Source: Salibacteraceae bacterium (lineage in GTDB: Bacteria > Bacteroidota > Bacteroidia > Flavobacteriales_G > Salibacteraceae). From it: a stretch of 10,827 nucleotides of DNA. Both the position numbers and the translations under genes were made by a program. How positions within the stretch are numbered: the first letter of the stretch is position 1; every line of letters begins with the position of its first letter. This document shows, piece by piece, positions 171-10,827 of the stretch. Where the stretch lies: positions 1 to 10,827 of the forward strand of contig JALRDM010000138.1 of the NCBI GenBank assembly GCA_023262195.1, given 5' to 3'. Below the pieces are notes generated by a model. The model saw only the letters and a program-made list of their open reading frames with translations, had not been told where the DNA came from and did no database searches.

Positions 171-263
171 GCAGCCATTCCAGTATTCCATGCATTGCTT
201 CATAGGAATAGCAAGGTAATTCCATTAAGCATCTACCACGAAACTGACTGAATTTTTTACAGT

Positions 264-458
264 GTGCCCGTTTACATCTCAACTCAAGGGATAGAACAGC
301 TTCCATTATCCATCACAAAAGAAGAACTTGAGGCGCTCGAATTTTCTAAAGCCAAAATTCGATCTATAGGTGAGTTTGCCCATGGCTTGATTCCTGACAA
401 AAATCAGCTCATAACCTTCCCCAATAAAATCAATTTTGCAACTTACAGTCAAAGCTGA
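264..458 (+). CDS. Hypothetical 64-residue ORF upstream of tryptophan dioxygenase, possibly a gene remnant
   Basis: An ORF starting with GTG at 264 ends six bases before the dioxygenase start. It encodes an ordinary-looking soluble peptide with a charged helical middle (KEELEALEFSKAKIRS), but I do not recognise any family and see no ribosome-binding site. It shares a reading frame with the partial ORF at 1-170, separated only by stops at 168 and 249. It could therefore be the tail of a broken gene, a small leader gene co-transcribed with the dioxygenase, or plain 5' untranslated sequence. Nothing else is visible between 171 and 464 except a weak, non-terminator hairpin at 184-210. Confidence 0.2.
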   Translation: MPVYISTQGIEQLPLSITKEELEALEFSKAKIRSIGEFAHGLIPDKNQLITFPNKINFATYSQS

Positions 459-1972: not shown

Positions 1973-2030
1973 GCGACCGAAAAACAAAATCGACTATTTA
2001 AAAGCATACAAGCAACACTAAATCGTGACT

Positions 2031-2879
2031 ATGAAACGAAATATTTTATCCCTAACCATGACGCTAGCAATCTTATTTGCAGGTCTTGGAACTTCTTTCG
2101 CTCAAGATGATATGGAGCAAACGACAGAAGAAACCACCATGGACAGCTCAATGGCCGAAGAAGCGCCTGCTGAGCCTGTTGCTAAGCCAGAGCCTGTTGA
2201 GGAGATGGCAGATGAAAGTGCAGAAGTTGAGCCAGAGGAAGAAGCTTCACTTCACCAAACCATAAAGCAGAAGTTCATTGAAGGCGGTCCTGAATTCATG
2301 TCATTCGTACTCATTTGTTTGATTCTTGGTCTTGCTTTGAGTATTGAGAGAATCTTATACTTAAACGATGCTTCTACTAACAATGCTAAATTGGTAGATG
2401 AAGTTGAAAGTGCTCTTCAAAATGGTGGTGTTGAAGCTGCAATGGAAGTTTGCAGAAACACTAGAGGCCCAGTAGCCAGCATATTCTATCAAGGTTTGTC
2501 AAGAGCTGACCAAGGAGTTGATATGGTTGAGAAGTCTGTCGTTTCATATGGAAGCGTTCAAATGGGTCAACTTGAAAAAGGCCTTTCATGGATTTCATTA
2601 TTTATTGCACTAGCCCCGATGCTTGGTTTCTTCGGTACGGTAATCGGTATGATTGGTGCGTTTGACGCAATTGCAGCAGCGAACAATATCTCTCCAGGAA
2701 TTGTGGCAGGTGGTATTGGTGTGGCACTTATTACAACGGTATCTGGTCTTCTTGTGGCTATGGTGCTCCAAGTGTTTTACAACTACCTTGTTGCAAAGGT
2801 TGACAGCATTGTAAATGAAATGGAAGATGCTTCTATTTCACTCATCGATATTATGATCAAGCACAACACAGCTAAATAA
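2031..2879 (+). CDS. exbB: ExbB/TolQ/MotA-family proton channel subunit with signal peptide and acidic linker
   Basis: This is the core stator of an ExbB-ExbD motor that uses proton flow across the inner membrane to drive TonB-dependent outer-membrane transport. I place the start at ATG 2031 rather than the in-frame GTG at 2025, because MKRNILSLTMTLAILFAGLG then forms a clean signal peptide (cleavage near A24-Q25). Residues 25-72 are a periplasmic linker rich in Glu, Asp, Pro and Ala. The channel domain follows: membrane segments at about 89-108, 186-210 and 226-252, with the family motif APMLGFFGTVIGMIGAF at 195-211 and a cytoplasmic loop between the first two. The 282-residue length is typical for Bacteroidota ExbB, which is longer than E. 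coli ExbB because of the N-terminal extension. Six bases separate it from the next gene, so it heads a four-gene operon. Confidence 0.93.
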   Translation: MKRNILSLTMTLAILFAGLGTSFAQDDMEQTTEETTMDSSMAEEAPAEPVAKPEPVEEMADESAEVEPEEEASLHQTIKQKFIEGGPEFMSFVLICLILGLALSIERILYLNDASTNNAKLVDEVESALQNGGVEAAMEVCRNTRGPVASIFYQGLSRADQGVDMVEKSVVSYGSVQMGQLEKGLSWISLFIALAPMLGFFGTVIGMIGAFDAIAAANNISPGIVAGGIGVALITTVSGLLVAMVLQVFYNYLVAKVDSIVNEMEDASISLIDIMIKHNTAK

Positions 2880-2885
2880 TCAAGC

Positions 2886-3314
2886 ATGTTTGAAAAAGTA
2901 AATCAAATAGGAATGGCCGTTATCATGGCCATTGGCGTAGTGCTGATGGTTATGACGATGGGTATTGAGGTTACAGATGAAGGCGAGTGTTTGAATTGCG
3001 GAATTGAAGGCACATTCATTGGTCTTTCATACGTATTGCTCGCAATTGCTGTGATAGCCGCATTAGCTGGCACAGTAATGACTGCAATTTCAAATCCAAA
3101 GAAACTCATTGGATCTGCCAAAGGCATCGGAGCAATGATCGTGATTTTCGTGATCAGTTATGTACTTGCTTCTGATGAGGTAGTGAAAAGTTATGGTGAC
3201 ATTACCGCTACAACCTCCAAGATGGTAGGTGCTGGTCTCTTTACCTTTTATATTTTATTGGTATTGGCCGTATTGAGCATAATATATGCTGGAATTTCAA
3301 GACTGATAAACTAA
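2886..3314 (+). CDS. Small four-helix membrane protein in exb operon, with a CxxC loop
   Basis: This is a 142-residue hydrophobic protein of unknown function. Four membrane segments are visible at about 7-26, 44-67, 81-96 and 114-136. A polar loop between the first two carries GECLNCG, with Cys35 and Cys38 as a CxxC pair. If the N-terminus is cytoplasmic, that loop faces the periplasm, where the cysteines could form a disulfide or bind metal; topology and function are inference. It starts 6 bases after exbB and ends 9 bases before exbD, so it is certainly co-transcribed with the motor genes. I recall small membrane proteins at this position in other Bacteroidota exb operons, which points to an accessory or assembly subunit of the ExbB-ExbD complex. 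It shows no similarity that I can see to ExbB, ExbD or TonB. Confidence 0.75.
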   Translation: MFEKVNQIGMAVIMAIGVVLMVMTMGIEVTDEGECLNCGIEGTFIGLSYVLLAIAVIAALAGTVMTAISNPKKLIGSAKGIGAMIVIFVISYVLASDEVVKSYGDITATTSKMVGAGLFTFYILLVLAVLSIIYAGISRLIN

Positions 3315-3323
3315 TTAGACACC

Positions 3324-3947
3324 ATGGCGCGCAGTAAAAGAGAATTACAGGAGATCAATGCAGGTTCGATGGCGGACATTGCCTTCCTACTCTTGGTTTT
3401 CTTCCTTGTTACCACCACCATGGATAGCAGTTGGGGGCTTTCTCGAAAGCTTCCTCCACCTATTTTGGAAAACCAACCTCCTCCCCCACCAATTAAAGAT
3501 CGAAACGTATTCACCGTACTGGCAAATGCCAACGATCAACTCTTGGTTGAAGGAGAGCTTATGGAAATCTCTGAACTGCGAGCAGCGGCAAAAGAGTTTA
3601 TCGCAAATCCACAAAAGAAGGAAGACCTGCCACAGTTTAAAGAGGTTGATGTTGAACTGTTGGGTCCTACAATGGTTTCAAAGCAGGTAATATCACTCCA
3701 AAATGACAACGGCACCTCTTACAATCTTTACATACAAGTACAGAATGAGCTTGAGGCGGCTTACAATGAATTGAGGGATGAATTGGCCATGGAAAAGTTT
3801 GGTGTAAAGTACAGTGTCCTTGAAGACATTGCTCAGCATAGCGATTTACCCAGTGAGTCAGAACCGGCTAAGGCCAAAGTAAAAGCCATAAGAAAGGTTT
3901 ATCCGCAGCGTATTTCTGAAGCAGAACCAAAAGAAACAGGACAATAA
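3324..3947 (+). CDS. exbD: ExbD/TolR-family biopolymer transporter, long first copy
   Basis: This is a single-pass inner-membrane subunit of the proton-driven motor. Residues 1-15 are cytoplasmic. The membrane helix begins SMADIAFLLLVFFLV (15-29), with Asp18 matching the essential proton-carrying Asp25 of E. coli ExbD. The periplasmic part starts with a stiff proline-rich neck (PPP at 44-46, five prolines at 52-56), then an ExbD fold including VISLQNDNGTSYNLYIQVQ (122-140). A charged tail of about 50 residues follows. At 207 residues it is much longer than E. coli ExbD (141) because of an insertion around 90-115 and the tail. The proline runs are expected to need EF-P for smooth translation. 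It is the third gene of the operon, 12 bases before a second, shorter exbD. The pairing suggests that the two form a heteromeric ExbD dimer, which is inference. Confidence 0.92.
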   Translation: MARSKRELQEINAGSMADIAFLLLVFFLVTTTMDSSWGLSRKLPPPILENQPPPPPIKDRNVFTVLANANDQLLVEGELMEISELRAAAKEFIANPQKKEDLPQFKEVDVELLGPTMVSKQVISLQNDNGTSYNLYIQVQNELEAAYNELRDELAMEKFGVKYSVLEDIAQHSDLPSESEPAKAKVKAIRKVYPQRISEAEPKETGQ

Positions 3948-3959
3948 ATCGGAGAAAAG

Positions 3960-4433
3960 ATGTCAAAGTTTAAAAAAGACGGAAATAAAAATACTCCAGC
4001 AGTATCTACAGCATCGCTGCCAGATATTGTATTCATGCTCCTATTCTTCTTCATGGTAACAACAGTAATGCGAGAGGTTGATTTGAAGATTAAGCTCAAC
4101 CAACCTGAGGCAACTGAAATTGAGAAGCTTGAAGACCGCTCTTTGGTTGATTATATATACATCGGAGAACCACAGAACACTTCACTTTACGGAACGCTTC
4201 CCAAGATTCAATTGGACGATGATTTTGCCAGTGTAGAAGACATTCAAGATTATGTTTTCCAAAAGCGATCAGACAGGCCAGAAGCAGTGCATGGAGCTAT
4301 CATCATTTCCTTGAAAGTTGATGAAGAAACTAAGATGGGTATTGTGACAGATGTAAAGCAAGAATTGAGAAAAGCTCAATCATTGAAAATCAGTTACTCT
4401 ACGAGAGAGAAAGTAGATAAGAATTCGTTCTAA
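3960..4433 (+). CDS. exbD: ExbD/TolR-family biopolymer transporter, short second copy
   Basis: This is the second ExbD of the operon, 157 residues. A basic cytoplasmic start is followed by ASLPDIVFMLLFFFMVTTVM (18-37), where Asp22 is the predicted proton-carrying residue inside the membrane helix. The periplasmic domain begins near 40 and ends with a helix-strand unit, TDVKQELRKAQSLKISYST, typical of ExbD C-terminal folds. It differs strongly from the first copy: no polyproline neck, no long tail and a different insertion around 55-85, so the two are not a recent duplication. A GGAG sits five bases before the ATG, one of the few Shine-Dalgarno-like sequences in this window. It is the last gene of the operon, with a strong terminator 25 bases after the stop. 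Confidence 0.92.
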   Translation: MSKFKKDGNKNTPAVSTASLPDIVFMLLFFFMVTTVMREVDLKIKLNQPEATEIEKLEDRSLVDYIYIGEPQNTSLYGTLPKIQLDDDFASVEDIQDYVFQKRSDRPEAVHGAIIISLKVDEETKMGIVTDVKQELRKAQSLKISYSTREKVDKNSF

Positions 4434-5441: not shown

Positions 5442-6431
5442 ATGGTCAAGATAGCCGACATCGAATTAGGGGATTTTCCATTATTGCTCGCACCCATGGA
5501 AGATGTGAGCGACCCGCCCTTTCGTGCGCTTTGCAAACGGCACGGAGCGGATATGATGTATACGGAATTTATCAGCTCCGAAGGCCTTATTCGTGATGCC
5601 CATAAGAGCACACAGAAGTTAGACATATATGATGAAGAGCGGCCAATCGGCATTCAAATTTTTGGAGGCGATGAAGATGCCATGCGTCAGTCTGCTGAAA
5701 TTGTAGAACGCAGCAAACCAGAGTTACTCGATATCAATTATGGCTGTCCAGTAAAGAAGGTTGTTTGTAAAGATGCAGGAGCCGGAATCCTAAAGAATAT
5801 TCCAAAGATGGTGAAGCTCACAAAGGCCATTGTTGAGAGCACCAATCTTCCCGTAACTGTAAAAACGCGACTTGGGTGGGATCAATCGTCTAAGAAAATT
5901 GTGGAAGTAGCCGAAAGACTTCAAGATGTTGGAATTAAAGCTATTTCAATTCACGGCAGAACTCGTGTACAGATGTACAAGGGAGAGGCCGATTGGTCCT
6001 TGATTGGTGAAGTGAAGAATAACCCCCGAATAAACATTCCAGTTTTTGGCAATGGTGATGTGGACAGCCCACAGAAAGCACTCGAAATGAAAAATCGCTT
6101 CGGTGTAGATGGGGTGATGATAGGCCGCGCTGCAATCGGAAATCCATGGGTGTTCAACCAAATAAAACATTACATGAAAACTGGAACTGTACTACCCACT
6201 CCAGACATTAAGGAGCGCGCGGAGGCTGCAGCCGAACACCTCAAACGATCAGTAGAGTGGAAAGGGGAGCGCGTTGGCATCATGGAAATGCGTAGACATT
6301 ACTCTAATTACTTCAAAGGAATCCCTCACTTCAAGGAGACAAGAATGAAATTGGTAACTGAGGATGATTATACCGCCTTAATGCAGGTTTTATCAGAAAT
6401 CGGCCCCCTTCATGAAGAGATCACCCTCTGA
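5442..6431 (+). CDS. dusB: tRNA-dihydrouridine synthase, DusB type
   Basis: This FMN enzyme reduces specific uridines of the tRNA D-loop to dihydrouridine using NADPH. The protein has 329 residues, the normal length. The TIM-barrel N-terminal domain carries the family signatures: LLLAPMEDVSDPPFRALCK (14-32), and INYGCPVKKVV (98-108) with catalytic Cys102. Lys141 (VTVKTRLGW) and His171 (SIHGRTR) are the usual flavin and substrate contacts, and GNGD (203-206) and IGRAAIGNPW (227-236) form the FMN phosphate site. A helical tRNA-binding tail follows from about 255 (EMRRHYSNYFKG). The ATG at 5442 gives the standard N-terminus. The gene is divergent from the protease and its last 22 bases overlap the convergent permease gene. 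The DusB subgroup is assigned by overall similarity to bacterial DusB; which tRNA position it modifies is not read from the sequence. Confidence 0.95.
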   Translation: MVKIADIELGDFPLLLAPMEDVSDPPFRALCKRHGADMMYTEFISSEGLIRDAHKSTQKLDIYDEERPIGIQIFGGDEDAMRQSAEIVERSKPELLDINYGCPVKKVVCKDAGAGILKNIPKMVKLTKAIVESTNLPVTVKTRLGWDQSSKKIVEVAERLQDVGIKAISIHGRTRVQMYKGEADWSLIGEVKNNPRINIPVFGNGDVDSPQKALEMKNRFGVDGVMIGRAAIGNPWVFNQIKHYMKTGTVLPTPDIKERAEAAAEHLKRSVEWKGERVGIMEMRRHYSNYFKGIPHFKETRMKLVTEDDYTALMQVLSEIGPLHEEITL

Positions 6432-7636
6432 AGCTTTTTCTCATTCAATAGCGACTTCACGGGAATATAACTTGCTCCCAGACCAATTGAAAGGGTAACA
6501 CCAACAACTGCAAAGAGGTCAACCAGTTCAAGCTTTACAGGGTAGAATTCCACTATGCCACCTTGAAGAGGAAAAAACCCCACATACTGCTGCAAGAGTA
6601 TTATCGTGCTCCCTAAGCCGAGGCCAATAGACAATCCTAAAAGCGTAATCAAAGCTCCTTCATAAAGGAACAAGCGCTGAACCTCACCAACCGTATTTCC
6701 AATGGTGCGTAGTAGTGAAATATCCTTACGTTTTTCAATGATTAACATGGCCAGGCTTCCAATCATATTAAATGTTGCCACAATCATAATGAAGCATAAA
6801 ATGAAGAAGGTCACCCATTTTTCTGCTGCATTGGTTTTGTAGATTACATCGTTTTGCTCAATCCTTGATTTTACCGTAAACCCATCACCAAAGTGTGCTT
6901 TTAACCGATCTATCACTTCATCCAAGTCTTGATCATTTTTAAGCGTAATATCCACATAGCTGGCCTCATCAACGTATTGAAGCAAATCTTGTGCAAATGC
7001 TCTGCTTACGTACATGTACTTATAATCAAACTCAGGATTCATCGCCACAATGGAGCCCGGTATCACGCGCAGTTTATTGAATTTGTTTTGCGGGTTCATG
7101 GCCTTTACCGCATCACGCTTAGCAGCATAAACTGTAATCGGCAACACTCCATCGCTTATAAATAAGTTGAGTTTATCTGCAATGCCGTATCCTATAATAG
7201 CGGCTTCCTCGTTAAACTGAGTAAAGCCTAATGACCCTTCAACAACGTGCGAGTCGAGACCCAAATTTGGCAAGTATTCTTCTTGCATCCCTCGAAGTGT
7301 CACGATGCTTTGCTCGCCATCAAACTGCAAAAACACTGTCTCTTCTAACACAGGAGAGGCATCCGCTATTTCTGGCCATGCTTTTACAGCCTCATATTGA
7401 AAAGAGTCAAGGTCAAAGACCTTACCCTTGGTTGGTTCAATTCGAATATCTGGGTCAACAGTAGTGTACAGCTGTTCCACAAGACCTTCCAAGCCATTAA
7501 AGGCGCTTAAAACTATAATCATGGCCAAGCTGCCAACGGCAACCCCAGCGGTTGCAATGCCCGAAATAATGTTGATTACATTCCTATTACCCTTAGAAAA
7601 CAGATACCTGCGTGCAATAGAAAATGGAACATTCAC
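6410..7636 (-). CDS. FtsX-family ABC transporter permease, LolC/LolE-like
   Basis: This inner-membrane permease of 408 residues has the LolC/LolE/MacB layout: first membrane helix at about 22-46, a large periplasmic domain (about 50-270), then three helices at about 274-299, 324-349 and 370-395. EKRKDISLLRTIGNT (301-315), just after the second helix, is the cytoplasmic coupling motif that contacts the ATPase. The N-terminal FSIARRYLFS also matches LolC/E. Known relatives extract lipoproteins from the inner membrane for delivery to the outer membrane; that role is likely but not proven, since no ATPase (LolD) gene is in the window. The gene starts 3 bases after the rbfA stop and is surely co-transcribed with it. 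Its last 22 bases overlap the end of dusB on the other strand. Confidence 0.87.
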   Translation of the reverse strand: MNVPFSIARRYLFSKGNRNVINIISGIATAGVAVGSLAMIIVLSAFNGLEGLVEQLYTTVDPDIRIEPTKGKVFDLDSFQYEAVKAWPEIADASPVLEETVFLQFDGEQSIVTLRGMQEEYLPNLGLDSHVVEGSLGFTQFNEEAAIIGYGIADKLNLFISDGVLPITVYAAKRDAVKAMNPQNKFNKLRVIPGSIVAMNPEFDYKYMYVSRAFAQDLLQYVDEASYVDITLKNDQDLDEVIDRLKAHFGDGFTVKSRIEQNDVIYKTNAAEKWVTFFILCFIMIVATFNMIGSLAMLIIEKRKDISLLRTIGNTVGEVQRLFLYEGALITLLGLSIGLGLGSTIILLQQYVGFFPLQGGIVEFYPVKLELVDLFAVVGVTLSIGLGASYIPVKSLLNEKKLQRVISS

Positions 7637-7639
7637 AGC

Positions 7640-7978
7640 CTAGTCAGGTAATAGTTCATAGATGCGCTCAGCGTAGTCGAGTGAGTCGTCATGATAAAAT
7701 CTCAACTCAGGCATTTTGCGAAACTGATTTCTAATTTTAGGATAAAGCCTGTGGTGTACTTCACCTATATGCTCATTAAGATTGGCCACAAACTTTTTCG
7801 GTTCTTTTTCTGGAAACACACTTACGTAAACTTTCGCAAATCCTAAATCTGGAGCTACACGAACCACGGAAATCGTAACTATATTGCCAGTGGATAGATG
7901 CGAAAGCTCCTTTTGAAAAAGCAGCCCCAATTCTTTTTGCAACAATCTAGATACCTTTTGCTGTCTTACCGATTCCAT
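7640..7978 (-). CDS. rbfA: 30S ribosome-binding factor A
   Basis: This is a small KH-fold protein of 112 residues that binds the immature 30S subunit, helps process the 5' end of 16S rRNA and supports growth in the cold. The family pattern is present: an N-terminal helix KVSRLLQKELGLLFQKE (8-24), the strand pair around TISVVRVAPDLGFAKVYVSVF (35-55), the helix with HHRLYPKIRNQFR (75-87), and the final PELRFYHDDSLDYAERI (90-106) typical of RbfA. It is the first gene of a two-gene unit with the permease downstream, three bases apart. A perfect -7 element lies five bases before the ATG, so its mRNA may have almost no leader. Confidence 0.93.
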   Translation of the reverse strand: MESVRQQKVSRLLQKELGLLFQKELSHLSTGNIVTISVVRVAPDLGFAKVYVSVFPEKEPKKFVANLNEHIGEVHHRLYPKIRNQFRKMPELRFYHDDSLDYAERIYELLPD

Positions 7979-8109: not shown

Positions 8110-9621
8110 ATGAAACAACCATTACTCTTTTCTTTCTTGTCCATTTTGAGTGTTAGTCTTTCAGCACAAATTACCATCACCGATGCCGATATTGGAGATG
8201 CCGGTGATAGCATGGTAGTCGGAAATTACTCTCCGGACACTTCTATCAGTGTTGGTGGTAGTGGAAACCAAAACTGGAACTTCACCTTTGCGGTTGATGA
8301 CATCAATACCCTGAAATTTGAGGATCCAGCCAACACCAATCGTGCGGCACTTTTCCCGAATGCGGATATTGCCATAGAGCGCCAAGATGACACCCTCTTC
8401 TTTGCGAAAACCGCCACAGAATTTGCCTTGGATGGCTTATCAGGCGATGTAAGCGCTCTCACGGGAATCCCCTTAACCTTGGGCCTCAATATTGATGGAA
8501 ATGTTAAGCAAATTGAGTTTCCGGCCACATTTAACAGCTCTTTTGCTGACCAAGCCGTAATCGATACTACGGTTGACTGTGCCGCACTTGGGGCTGGTTC
8601 TTTTTGTGAGCAAGCTCGAGTAAAAAGAAGGTATATAGTGTCTGCTGAAATCGATGCTCACGGCTCACTTGAGCATTCAGGTGGTAAATACAACAATACA
8701 TTGCGTCAATATACTGAGGAACGCACCATTGATTCGGTTTGGGCAAACCTTCCGTTTATAGGCGGTCCACTCAACTTTATTCAAGAAATTGATTCAACAA
8801 GCCATATCTATCGATGGCTCGCGAATGATGAAGACTGGCCAGTACTTACGGCATTTGCTGATGCCGAAGGTGGTAACATGATTCAAGTAGAATTTCAAGT
8901 CGATACACTGCTCGCATACATTACCGGAAGCACTCAACCGTCATGTAACGGAGATTGCGATGGCAGCGCTACGGTTGAACCCATTGGGGACACAGGGCCA
9001 TTCACATTCAGCTGGCCAGCGAGTGCGGGAAACCAGTCTTCTGCAACCGGAACAAATCTATGTGCCGGCACATATATGGTTACTGTATCAGATAATCAAT
9101 CGAATTCCACCACAATAGAAGTAGTCATCAACGAACCTGCGCCTATGGCTGTAACAGGATCCATTAAAGGTGTGACCACAACCAATGATGGCGCTGTTGA
9201 TATCACGGCAAGTGGCGGCAGTGGCAACTACACCTACGCATGGGTGGGACCTGATGGCTTCTCTGCCACAACAGGAGATATTAGCGGCCTTGCTGAAGGC
9301 ACATACACAGTGACCATTGTGGATCAAAATGGTTGTGAGGTCACAGAATCATACATTGTAGTAGCAACAGGAATTGGTGAAATAAATCGCCAATCTTTAA
9401 CCCTGTTCCCAAATCCTGCAGATCAAGAAATCCAAATTACGAGCAAACATGTTATAGACGAGGTAATCTTGCTCGACCTTATTGGGAATCGAGTTTTACG
9501 TCAGCCTGTGAATAATGCAAAAATGAGGCTTGGAACAAGCGATATCAGTAACGGCATATACCTGCTACAAGTGTCAACAAACGATCAAGTATTGGTTGAG
9601 AAAATAACGATAAAACATTGA
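8110..9621 (+). CDS. T9SS-exported protein with SprB-like repeats and type A sorting domain
   Basis: This is a secreted or cell-surface protein of 503 residues. A signal peptide (1-19, MKQPLLFSFLSILSVSLSA, cleavage before Q20) leads into a beta-rich N-terminal region (20-272). That region has an ITITDADIGDAGD opening and a Cys pair at 157 and 166; I recognise its style from other Bacteroidota exported proteins but not its function. Two SprB-like repeats follow, at about 273-345 and 346-418, each with GSG/GxxxFxW-type strands and a CAGTYMVTV or AEGTYTVTI ending. The C-terminal T9SS type A sorting domain (about 429-503) starts SLTLFPNPADQEIQI and ends with VEKITIKH, so the protein should cross the outer membrane by the type IX system and have that domain removed. 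No catalytic motif is visible; adhesion or a structural surface role is inference. Its TGA stop lies within the first operator of the next gene. Confidence 0.88.
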   Translation: MKQPLLFSFLSILSVSLSAQITITDADIGDAGDSMVVGNYSPDTSISVGGSGNQNWNFTFAVDDINTLKFEDPANTNRAALFPNADIAIERQDDTLFFAKTATEFALDGLSGDVSALTGIPLTLGLNIDGNVKQIEFPATFNSSFADQAVIDTTVDCAALGAGSFCEQARVKRRYIVSAEIDAHGSLEHSGGKYNNTLRQYTEERTIDSVWANLPFIGGPLNFIQEIDSTSHIYRWLANDEDWPVLTAFADAEGGNMIQVEFQVDTLLAYITGSTQPSCNGDCDGSATVEPIGDTGPFTFSWPASAGNQSSATGTNLCAGTYMVTVSDNQSNSTTIEVVINEPAPMAVTGSIKGVTTTNDGAVDITASGGSGNYTYAWVGPDGFSATTGDISGLAEGTYTVTIVDQNGCEVTESYIVVATGIGEINRQSLTLFPNPADQEIQITSKHVIDEVILLDLIGNRVLRQPVNNAKMRLGTSDISNGIYLLQVSTNDQVLVEKITIKH

Positions 9622-9653
9622 TGAGTTTCAAAAGTCAAATTGACTTCTGTCAA
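9618..9653 (+). promoter_or_regulatory. Tandem FNR/FixK-type palindromes upstream of the response regulator-CRP/FNR gene
   Basis: Two sites of the form TTGA-N6-TCAA are present. Site A at 9618-9631 is TTGATGAGTTTCAA, and it contains the stop codon of the preceding gene. Site B at 9640-9653 is TTGACTTCTGTCAA, whose arms extend to six bases (ATTGAC/GTCAAT). Their centres are 22 bp apart, two helical turns, so both face the same side of the DNA. Extra GTCAA half-sites lie at 9634-9638 and 9659-9663. Site B is centred about 42-46 bases before the likely transcription start, a class II activator position. The downstream gene encodes a protein with a matching CRP/FNR DNA-binding domain, so autoregulation is the simplest inference. 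Confidence 0.6.
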
Positions 9654-9677
9654 TAATCGTCAAGAAAATATTAGTAC

Positions 9678-9685
9678 TACTTTTT
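9678..9685 (+). promoter_or_regulatory. Candidate weak -7 element of the response regulator gene
   Basis: TACTTTTT matches seven of the eight positions in TAnnTTTG (last G replaced by T) and lies 20 bases before the ATG. It begins 24 bases after the end of the downstream operator half-site. No -33 TTTG is present at the expected distance, where the operator sits instead. That fits an activator-dependent promoter, though the assignment is tentative. Confidence 0.3.
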
Positions 9686-9705
9686 ATGTGAAAATACCAA
9701 AGTAG

Positions 9706-10764
9706 ATGAAACAAATATTACTCATCGAGGACAATGTTGACGTGCGTGAAAATACGGCTGAAATACTGGAATTGGCAGGTTACCAGGTGTCAACGGCTGA
9801 AAACGGAAAAGTAGGAGCCAGCCTGGCGGTTACGGGCAATTTCGATATTATCATTTGTGATATTATGATGCCCGTACTCTATAGATCCGGTGTCTTACAC
9901 ATTCTGAATAAAAACCAAAAAACCAGTACAATTCCACTCATTTTCTTGACGGCTAAATCTGAGAAAAAAGATTTCCGAAAAGGAATGAATTTAGGTGCGG
10001 ATGATTATTTAACAAAGCCTTTTGAAGAAACCGAATTGCTCGAAGTAATCGAACGGAGGCTAGAGAAATCAGATAAATTAAAAAGTACACAAGCCAAGAA
10101 CCCTATCGACTTTATCGATACGGTAGAAAAAGGGGTGAACCTCACCGAACTCATTACCGAGAAAAATACTCGGCATTTTAAGAAAAAAGAAACCATATAC
10201 CGAGAAGGTGAGTATCCAAACGCTCTTTACTACATAAAATCAGGTAAGGTAAAACTGAGTAGAATCAGCGACTATGGTAAAGAGTTTATTACATCAATAT
10301 GCAGCGAAGGTGAATTCATAGGATATCTGGCATTGTTTGAGAACACTACTTTTCAAGAAGAAGCCATCACCATTGAAGATTCTGAGGTAGTTACAATTTC
10401 TTTTGACGAATTTCAAAAGCTACTTCACTCCAATCGCGAAGTCTCTAATAATTTCATTCGATTATTGTCAAGAAATGCTCTAGACCAAGAGGATCGCCTG
10501 CTCAAGCTCGCTTATGGCAATGTGCGCGAACGTGTGGCTTATGTATTGAATCATATTTACGAAAAGCATGGCACCAGTTCTTTAGATATTGGATTGAGTA
10601 TCTCTCGAGACGAGCTCGCAGGATATACAGGTATTGCCACAGAATCATTGATACGAACACTGAGCGACCTCAAAGCTGATGGTGTGCTTGCTACAGATGG
10701 TAGAAATTTGCAAATTCTCGATGCGGATAAACTGAAGAGAATCGCCAATGGACAGCCTGCTTAA
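9706..10764 (+). CDS. Response regulator fused to a CRP/FNR-type transcription factor
   Basis: This is a cytoplasmic regulator of 352 residues joining two modules. The receiver (1-121) has the acidic pair Glu8-Asp9, phospho-acceptor Asp52 (CDIMMP), Thr82 and Lys104-Pro105. A linker (122-146) leads to a cyclic-nucleotide-binding-like beta barrel (about 147-235), a dimer helix (about 236-262) and a winged helix (about 263-340). The helix-turn-helix, ISRDELAGYTGIATESLIRTL, starts at 299. Its recognition helix keeps Glu313 and Arg317 with the spacing of FNR Glu209/Arg213 and CRP Glu181/Arg185, the residues that read TGA-type half-sites. The FNR iron-sulfur cysteines are absent (only Cys51 and Cys199), and Glu218-Glu219 replace CRP Arg82-Ser83, so cAMP binding is unlikely. 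The usual DG of the receiver loop after MMP is replaced by Tyr59-Arg60. No partner histidine kinase is in the window. The gene is flanked by paired FNR-type sites. Confidence 0.92.
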   Translation: MKQILLIEDNVDVRENTAEILELAGYQVSTAENGKVGASLAVTGNFDIIICDIMMPVLYRSGVLHILNKNQKTSTIPLIFLTAKSEKKDFRKGMNLGADDYLTKPFEETELLEVIERRLEKSDKLKSTQAKNPIDFIDTVEKGVNLTELITEKNTRHFKKKETIYREGEYPNALYYIKSGKVKLSRISDYGKEFITSICSEGEFIGYLALFENTTFQEEAITIEDSEVVTISFDEFQKLLHSNREVSNNFIRLLSRNALDQEDRLLKLAYGNVRERVAYVLNHIYEKHGTSSLDIGLSISRDELAGYTGIATESLIRTLSDLKADGVLATDGRNLQILDADKLKRIANGQPA

Positions 10765-10767
10765 CGA

Positions 10768-10803
10768 TTGATGAACATCAAGTTAAGGATTGACCTGAAT
10801 CAA
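10768..10803 (+). promoter_or_regulatory. Second tandem pair of FNR/FixK-type palindromes, just after the regulator gene
   Basis: Site C at 10768-10781, TTGATGAACATCAA, is a perfect match to the classical FNR box TTGAT-N4-ATCAA. Site D at 10790-10803, TTGACCTGAATCAA, is a second TTGA-N6-TCAA palindrome. Their centres are 22 bp apart, the same as in the pair upstream of the regulator, and in both pairs the first site begins TTGATGA and the second TTGAC. Site C begins four bases after the regulator's TAA. The target is presumably a plus-strand gene that starts beyond the window. No terminator separates the regulator from this element. Confidence 0.6.
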
Positions 10804-10827
10804 GCGCGTCTGTTTTGATTTATACCC

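Follow-up and report, generated by a model that had tools for sequence, protein, structure and literature searches.

The regulator gene and its flanking sites

We analysed a stretch of 10,827 nucleotides (hereafter the window) from a Salibacteraceae bacterium (assembly GCA_023262195.1, contig JALRDM010000138.1), in which a gene for a response regulator fused to a CRP/FNR-type protein lies between two pairs of palindromic sites. The assembly is metagenome-derived, comprises 420 contigs totalling 2.1 Mb and is 79% complete. The gene and the sites beside it are arranged as follows:

9618 to 9631 (+): pair 1, upstream site, TTGATGAGTTTCAA, exact TTGA-N6-TCAA
9640 to 9653 (+): pair 1, downstream site, TTGACTTCTGTCAA, at 22-bp spacing from the upstream site
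9706 to 10764 (+): response regulator-CRP/FNR fusion gene, 352 residues, assigned with Pfam
9715 to 10050 (+): receiver domain of the fusion regulator (PF00072)
10171 to 10434 (+): cNMP-binding domain of the fusion regulator (PF00027)
10528 to 10743 (+): Crp-type helix-turn-helix of the fusion regulator (PF13545)
10768 to 10781 (+): pair 2, upstream site, TTGATGAACATCAA, exact TTGA-N6-TCAA
10790 to 10803 (+): pair 2, downstream site, TTGACCTGAATCAA, whose -7 box would start at 10826

The original prediction, made from the letters of this DNA, had placed exact TTGA-N6-TCAA palindromes at 9618, 9640, 10768 and 10790, and all four are indeed there; the 22-bp spacing and the order TTGATGA.. then TTGAC.. 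also hold for both pairs. All sites had been described as lying in noncoding flanks. The four do flank the regulator gene, but the one at 9618 shares bases with the upstream gene, whose stop codon (9619-9621) falls within it, and two further exact sites, at 7397 and 10403, had been overlooked, both of them intragenic. Such sites had rightly been judged rare by chance, since the window holds 6 against 0.51 expected and this number was not attained in any of 200 shuffles. A single exact site is weak evidence by itself, because the assembly contains 162 of them. The proposed search for exact pairs spaced by 22 bp singled out just these two places in the genome itself, and in 59 relatives it returned one match, which is intragenic (G001). 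The paired sites are very probably genuine control elements. Since the contig stops at 10827, 24 bases beyond the last site, the gene that follows pair 2 lies outside the sequence.

All three Pfam domains score above their gathering thresholds in the fusion regulator, which has receiver, cNMP-binding and helix-turn-helix domains in one protein. The Glu and Arg attributed to its CRP/FNR-type recognition helix are Glu313 and Arg317, and neither residue varies among the 102 aligned sequences, the window's among them. Relatives of the protein (42-51% identity) were found in 80 named loci, nearly all of them titled as Bacteroidota groups. Several better known identities were considered. FNR as an iron-sulfur oxygen sensor has four cluster-binding cysteines; the fusion regulator has only Cys51 and Cys199, with no cysteine cluster, which speaks against this identity, and NCBIfam FNR, although among the best matches of the CRP part, scores far under its cut-off (86.8 versus 228 bits). 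The cAMP-binding cassette of CRP carries an arginine, whereas GEFIGYLALFENTTFQEEA has none at the corresponding position, and the NCBIfam CRP score is 88.2 against a cut-off of 266 bits. FixJ combines a receiver with a LuxR-type helix-turn-helix, and here this domain is of the Crp type. The best solved relative of the CRP part is PDB 2gau (E 1.3e-27).

A strict paired-promoter grammar in Bacteroidota

The 22-bp pairing belongs to a longer pattern, TGA-N6-TCA-N10-TGA-N6-TCA-N27-TTTG, which is a strict promoter grammar of 65 bases present in many Bacteroidota genomes. By eye, a TGA-N6-TCA pair with 22-bp spacing stands in the usp promoters of five genomes (G001, G002, G004, G005 and G007), and in the same five promoters nnnnTTTG begins 22 nt past the 14-bp downstream site. 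The left half is degenerate in the usp promoter of G003, and in that of G015 the distance is 21 nt rather than 22. In the first five genomes the ccoS-ccoNO promoters are laid out identically except that the left half of the downstream site is weak; two of the promoters are cut at the edge of the examined sequence.

The spacing was tested with TTGA-N6-TCA-N{4,16}-TGA-N6-TCA in 13 genomes of the genus, our own included. Gap 10 (22 bp) accounted for 22 of 98 distinct places, whereas the 12 other gaps averaged 6.3 (sd 2.4); the 22 include the two pairs of the window and the five usp pairs known beforehand, so that the remainder is 15 against 6.3, and at least three of the 22 (G001:C25, G006:C4 and G003:C5) resemble non-promoter matches. 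With the full grammar and at most one mismatch, matches occurred in 56 of 60 genomes (own included), and the 59 relatives gave 280 versus 6 for the reversed pattern. When both gaps were left free in 17 genomes, 37 of 59 places fell at (10, 27) and the rest were scattered across 120 other cells; the genomes had been picked partly for many full-grammar matches, which inflates this proportion, and one ambiguous row was put at (11,27). The 80 named loci (535,540 bases) had not been chosen by grammar matches. At (10, 27) they gave 10 exact matches (the 168 other cells averaged 0.03, with a maximum of 2), 33 with one mismatch (mean 0.51, maximum 8 elsewhere) and 55 with two mismatches, where the contrast is weaker (mean 3.48, maximum 37 in one other cell). 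By these spacing and grammar tests the 22-bp pairing, which had been proposed as an operator geometry, is real and conserved across relatives, and the pairing of sites is not chance. In the named loci exact TTGA-N6-TCAA was overly strict as a search motif; TGA-N6-TCA with fixed gaps succeeded.

Among 66 distinct exact sites, A fills one of the unspecified positions in 77%, so that the box reads yAnnTTTG, as expected of a Bacteroidota -7 box. When TTGA-N6-TCAA was required to precede an exact TAnnTTTG by 10-40 nt, 13 genomes gave 38 matches versus 28 for the reversed pattern, which is no clear excess because the box is mostly yAnnTTTG. In Flavobacterium psychrophilum the TAnnTTTG box is placed at -12 to -5 in passages of a transcription map (PMC9723704). 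A box at this position would put the centre of the downstream site at -41.5 and that of the upstream site at -63.5. The class II activator position of FNR and CRP is -41.5.

Pair 1 stands in the place of the ccoI operator

The region upstream of the regulator contains the following features:

5442 to 7978 (both strands): Dus (+), FtsX-like (-) and RbfA (-) genes, whose synteny marks pair 1 as a putative ccoI operator
8110 to 9621 (+): gene for a secreted protein sorted by the type IX secretion system (T9SS), with SprB repeat and Por_Secre_tail; its orthologue precedes the ccoI operator pair in five congeners
9673 to 9705 (+): apparent deletion scar, codons STTFYVKIPK-stop, tail of a histidine kinase gene abutting the regulator ATG
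9678 to 9685 (+): TACTTTTT, nearest -7-like element, 24 nt after pair 1 and not 22, departing from the yAnnTTTG consensus

A pair sits between the T9SS-protein orthologue and ccoI in five congeners (G001, G003, G007, G009 and G012), and in all five, just as in the window, the first TGA of the pair serves the T9SS-protein gene as its stop codon. The ccoI gene behind it is of full length in G001, G003 and G007, has 536 codons in G009 and has a broken start in G012. RbfA and FtsX lie on the other side in congeners as in the window, with Dus beyond them in G009 only. By its position, pair 1 would thus be the ccoI operator.

Orthologues of the fusion regulator were found in 7 of 12 congeners (64-72% identity) and in G015 of the same family (65%). 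A gene for a PAS histidine kinase directly precedes the regulator in all of these, and a histidine kinase gene does so in many named loci, whereas in the window the kinase tail alone remains before it. In G001, G002, G004, G005 and G007 the regulator closes a cluster read as ccoS-ccoNO, ccoP, ccoG, ccoH, hemN, a TerB-like gene and the kinase, and two usp genes come after it, in G005 behind an LDH-like gene. Pfam confirmed the kinase and Usp (in G003) and the ccoI ATPase (in G005); the remaining cluster names come from reading the sequences. The kinases of eight of eight relatives terminate in GTTFx(V/I)x(I/L)P, and the 84-bp gap before the regulator in the window ends in codons of this kind. 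Apparently a deletion starting just past the ccoI operator and reaching as far as the kinase gene's end joined the operator to the regulator. The corresponding stretch is longer in G001 and G007 (about 18 kb) than in G003 (about 10 kb), and the ccoI -7 box would have been removed along with it. The genome's own assembly yielded no CcoG, CcoN, Usp or kinase orthologue, but because this assembly is 79% complete their absence is not proven.

These findings bear on two claims of the original prediction. The upstream pair had been suggested to let the regulator control itself. No exact site lies between kinase and regulator in the seven congeners and G015 (the exact upstream sites of G005 and G015 fall within the kinase gene), and pair 1 holds the place of the ccoI operator and not of an ancestral regulator promoter, which speaks against self-control as the original arrangement. 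With the ccoI -7 box lost and TACTTTTT as its nearest substitute, self-regulation from pair 1 is possible but would not be ancestral. Control by a phosphorelay, also proposed, is doubtful in this genome because no kinase orthologue was found at the given completeness. The receiver retains the phosphorylation-site Asp of ICDIMMP. Its motif ELDGY, present in eight of eight close relatives, reads VLYRS in the window (residues 57-61, positions 9874-9888), a change that possibly reflects relaxed constraint following kinase loss. Of 37 near-invariant receiver columns, 2 differ in the window, compared with a mean of 0.46 (sd 0.75), which is no more than suggestive of decay of the domain once the kinase is gone.

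In this genus the cbb3 module appears to have suffered repeated loss or breakage while operator pairs persist: ccoN is absent in G003, G006, G009, G010 and G012 and partial in G011, and ccoI is shortened in G010 as in G009, besides its broken copy in G012.

Pair 2 and the next transcription unit

Immediately downstream of the regulator, all seven congeners that have the gene carry a pair with no more than one mismatch. Zero mismatches are found where it stands before usp (G001, G002, G004 and G007), and one mismatch where it stands before an LDH-like gene (G003, G005 and G008). Since the pair follows the regulator in all seven, pair 2 probably controls the next unit, as had been proposed.

The LDH-like gene, which follows the regulator in G003 and G005, has a counterpart at the opposite end of our contig, where positions 171-368 (+) hold a decayed C-terminal piece with internal stops (56% identity over 68 residues to the G005 protein). 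This is compatible with a tandem duplication as well as with a separate remnant. The contig ends share no overlap of more than 10 bases. Elsewhere in the window, a gene of the tryptophan-2,3-dioxygenase family and one for a bacterial-type globin have a few bases in common (465-1789), and an ExbB-like gene, a gene for a 142-residue membrane-like protein with no Pfam match and two ExbD-like genes stand in a row (2025-4433).

Genes behind the paired promoters

We surveyed 51 distinct exact sites in loci L020-L099 and L229-L284, and for 42 of them an open reading frame of at least 80 codons begins within 260 nt. Twenty of these reading frames were compared with Pfam, and the matches comprise Usp, COX1 (ccoN), the heavy-metal ATPase (ccoI), radical SAM (HemN-like), MFS (NarK-like by eye), Hsp20, TerB, DoxX and an ArsR-type helix-turn-helix; the remaining eight are small proteins with no Pfam match. 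FNR-type boxes precede ccoI and ccoN in the relatives, as in FixK-type control of the cbb3 oxidase. From their targets, the paired promoters appear to define a FixK/FNR-like microaerobic regulon of Bacteroidota.

The window's own genome has a third such place (C359), with one mismatch, ahead of a small gene that has pairs in congeners as well. This conserved gene (VHIDDLHFEH..., about 130 residues) has a paired operator in many congeners as well as here (L224, L220, L214, L222, L223, L251, L253, L255 and, in the own genome, L254 at G000:C359). It has no Pfam match in L251, the one locus tested, and in several loci it is divergent from an aspartyl-tRNA-synthetase-like gene.

A model for the paired operators and its alternatives

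We favour, with a probability of about 0.68, a reading in which the pairs serve a FixK/FNR-like microaerobic regulon, are read by the fusion protein and have been rearranged by a deletion in this genome. The intact module, as in congeners, would consist of ccoI; ccoS-ccoNO; ccoP; ccoG; ccoH; hemN; the TerB-like gene; the PAS histidine kinase; the fusion regulator; and usp-usp. The kinase would answer what would be a low-oxygen signal by phosphorylating the receiver of the fusion protein. Two dimers, bound through its CRP-type part, would then occupy a single DNA face at a distance of two turns. The effect would be activation and not repression: the downstream dimer at -41.5 would contact RNA polymerase as a class II activator, replacing the -33 box, and the upstream dimer at -63.5 would assist. 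In this genome the deletion would have taken out everything from ccoI through the kinase and left the former ccoI operator (pair 1) before the regulator, while pair 2 would drive the next unit (LDH-like or usp in relatives). The fusion protein is likely the reader in this genus: across 59 relatives (own genome's row left out), the median number of grammar matches is 6 in the 25 with a full-length fusion protein versus 2 in the other 34, a raw comparison uncorrected for phylogeny.

Several observations pull the other way. Both pairs of the window fall short of the full grammar, pair 1 because its -7 box has been lost (TTTG shows two mismatches at the standard gap) and pair 2 because its box would lie beyond the contig end. 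The genome as a whole has one full-grammar match at up to one mismatch and none in the two-gap test. By eye, G008 has no clear pair before usp. Exact TTGA-N6-TCAA is absent from the gaps flanking the regulator in 39 of 39 named loci, namely those in which the gene was recognised (the pattern missed it in the other 41 of 80). Matches are also kept in G006 and G009-G012, which have no fusion protein, and G019 and G022 have 9 and 10 without a full-length one at E 1e-30.

The counts in G019 and G022 mean that an unfused CRP/FNR protein can be the reader, and it is conceivable, though unlikely, that such a protein is the main reader of the pairs and the fusion protein a neighbour that binds weakly or elsewhere. 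G043, with 6 matches and no full-length fusion protein, fits this view, and proteins with the CRP part only were matched, for example in G017 and G043; in the congeners, however, the fusion gene lies within the cbb3 cluster amid its targets, the pair follows it in every case, and grammar matches are more numerous where the fusion protein occurs, with the phylogenetic caveat given above. A more tenable proposal, still short of our preference, concerns pair 1 alone and is compatible with the favoured reading for the regulon as a whole: the pair may be a relic of the ccoI promoter that lost its -7 box and its target and has no part in regulating the fusion gene. Kinase-tail sequence indeed stands in place of the -7 box, and G009 and G012, which have no fusion gene, retain pairs before a shortened or broken ccoI; yet the half-sites of pair 1 are all perfect, better than those of relatives, and 24 nt behind the pair TACTTTTT might serve as a -7 element.

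That the junction of pair 1 and regulator is an assembly error, with no deletion, is improbable. Such an error could be imagined in so fragmented and incomplete an assembly, but the contig is continuous across the junction with no gap, CcoG, CcoN and the kinase are also missing from the rest of the assembly, and congeners show comparable losses. Chance origin of the paired sites we consider practically negligible: single exact sites are frequent in the genome, but shuffling did not reproduce their number in the window, and the same spacing recurs at orthologous places in relatives.

The favoured reading can be widened, at what we would call even odds, to a two-dimer promoter (-63.5 and -41.5 over TAnnTTTG) that is a main low-oxygen switch of the whole Bacteroidota phylum; its reader would be a receiver-CRP fusion under kinase control, uniting FixJ and FixK, and the deletion here would have put the regulator of a kinase operon behind its own operator. 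A promoter rule of 65 bases with two fixed gaps would allow the regulon to be read from many genomes, and the window illustrates possible regulon erosion, in which regulator and operators remain and the oxidase module and kinase are not found.

Comparison with known systems

Among the matches listed in the open-access literature, none was recognisable by title or abstract as describing the paired grammar or the fusion regulator in Bacteroidota, and we found among them no description of the regulator that switches on the Bacteroidota cbb3 oxidase at low oxygen. Oxygen limitation induces the cbb3 oxidase and heme genes in F. psychrophilum, according to passages of PMC9723704; this transcription map has TAnnTTTG at -12 to -5 in common with the paired promoters, its main text does not contain FNR or Crp, and the passages in question contain no paired operator. 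In part of a study on CRP/FNR regulons of a bioreactor, the homologues of Flavobacteriales and Saprospiraceae are likened to MalR (PMC8510549), and another listed paper names FixK2 (PMC9104804).

At the protein level, PDB 2gau resembles the fusion regulator as a CRP/FNR-family protein and the nearest solved match to its CRP part, but the matched chain of 232 residues has no receiver domain. With E. coli FNR the system shares the box sequence and the -41.5 position; it differs in that the fusion regulator lacks the cysteine cluster and has an N-terminal receiver. In rhizobia the FixLJ-FixK (FixK2) cascade controls the cbb3 oxidase. The system described here resembles it in having a PAS histidine kinase and a response regulator beside cbb3, CcoGHIS-type and hemN genes, and TTGA-N6-TCAA boxes of the CRP/FNR type at the class II position. 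It differs in that receiver and CRP-type domain are united in one protein, where the rhizobial system has FixJ, with its LuxR-type helix-turn-helix, plus FixK, and in that its operators are strictly paired, at a spacing of 22 bp, upstream of a TAnnTTTG box.

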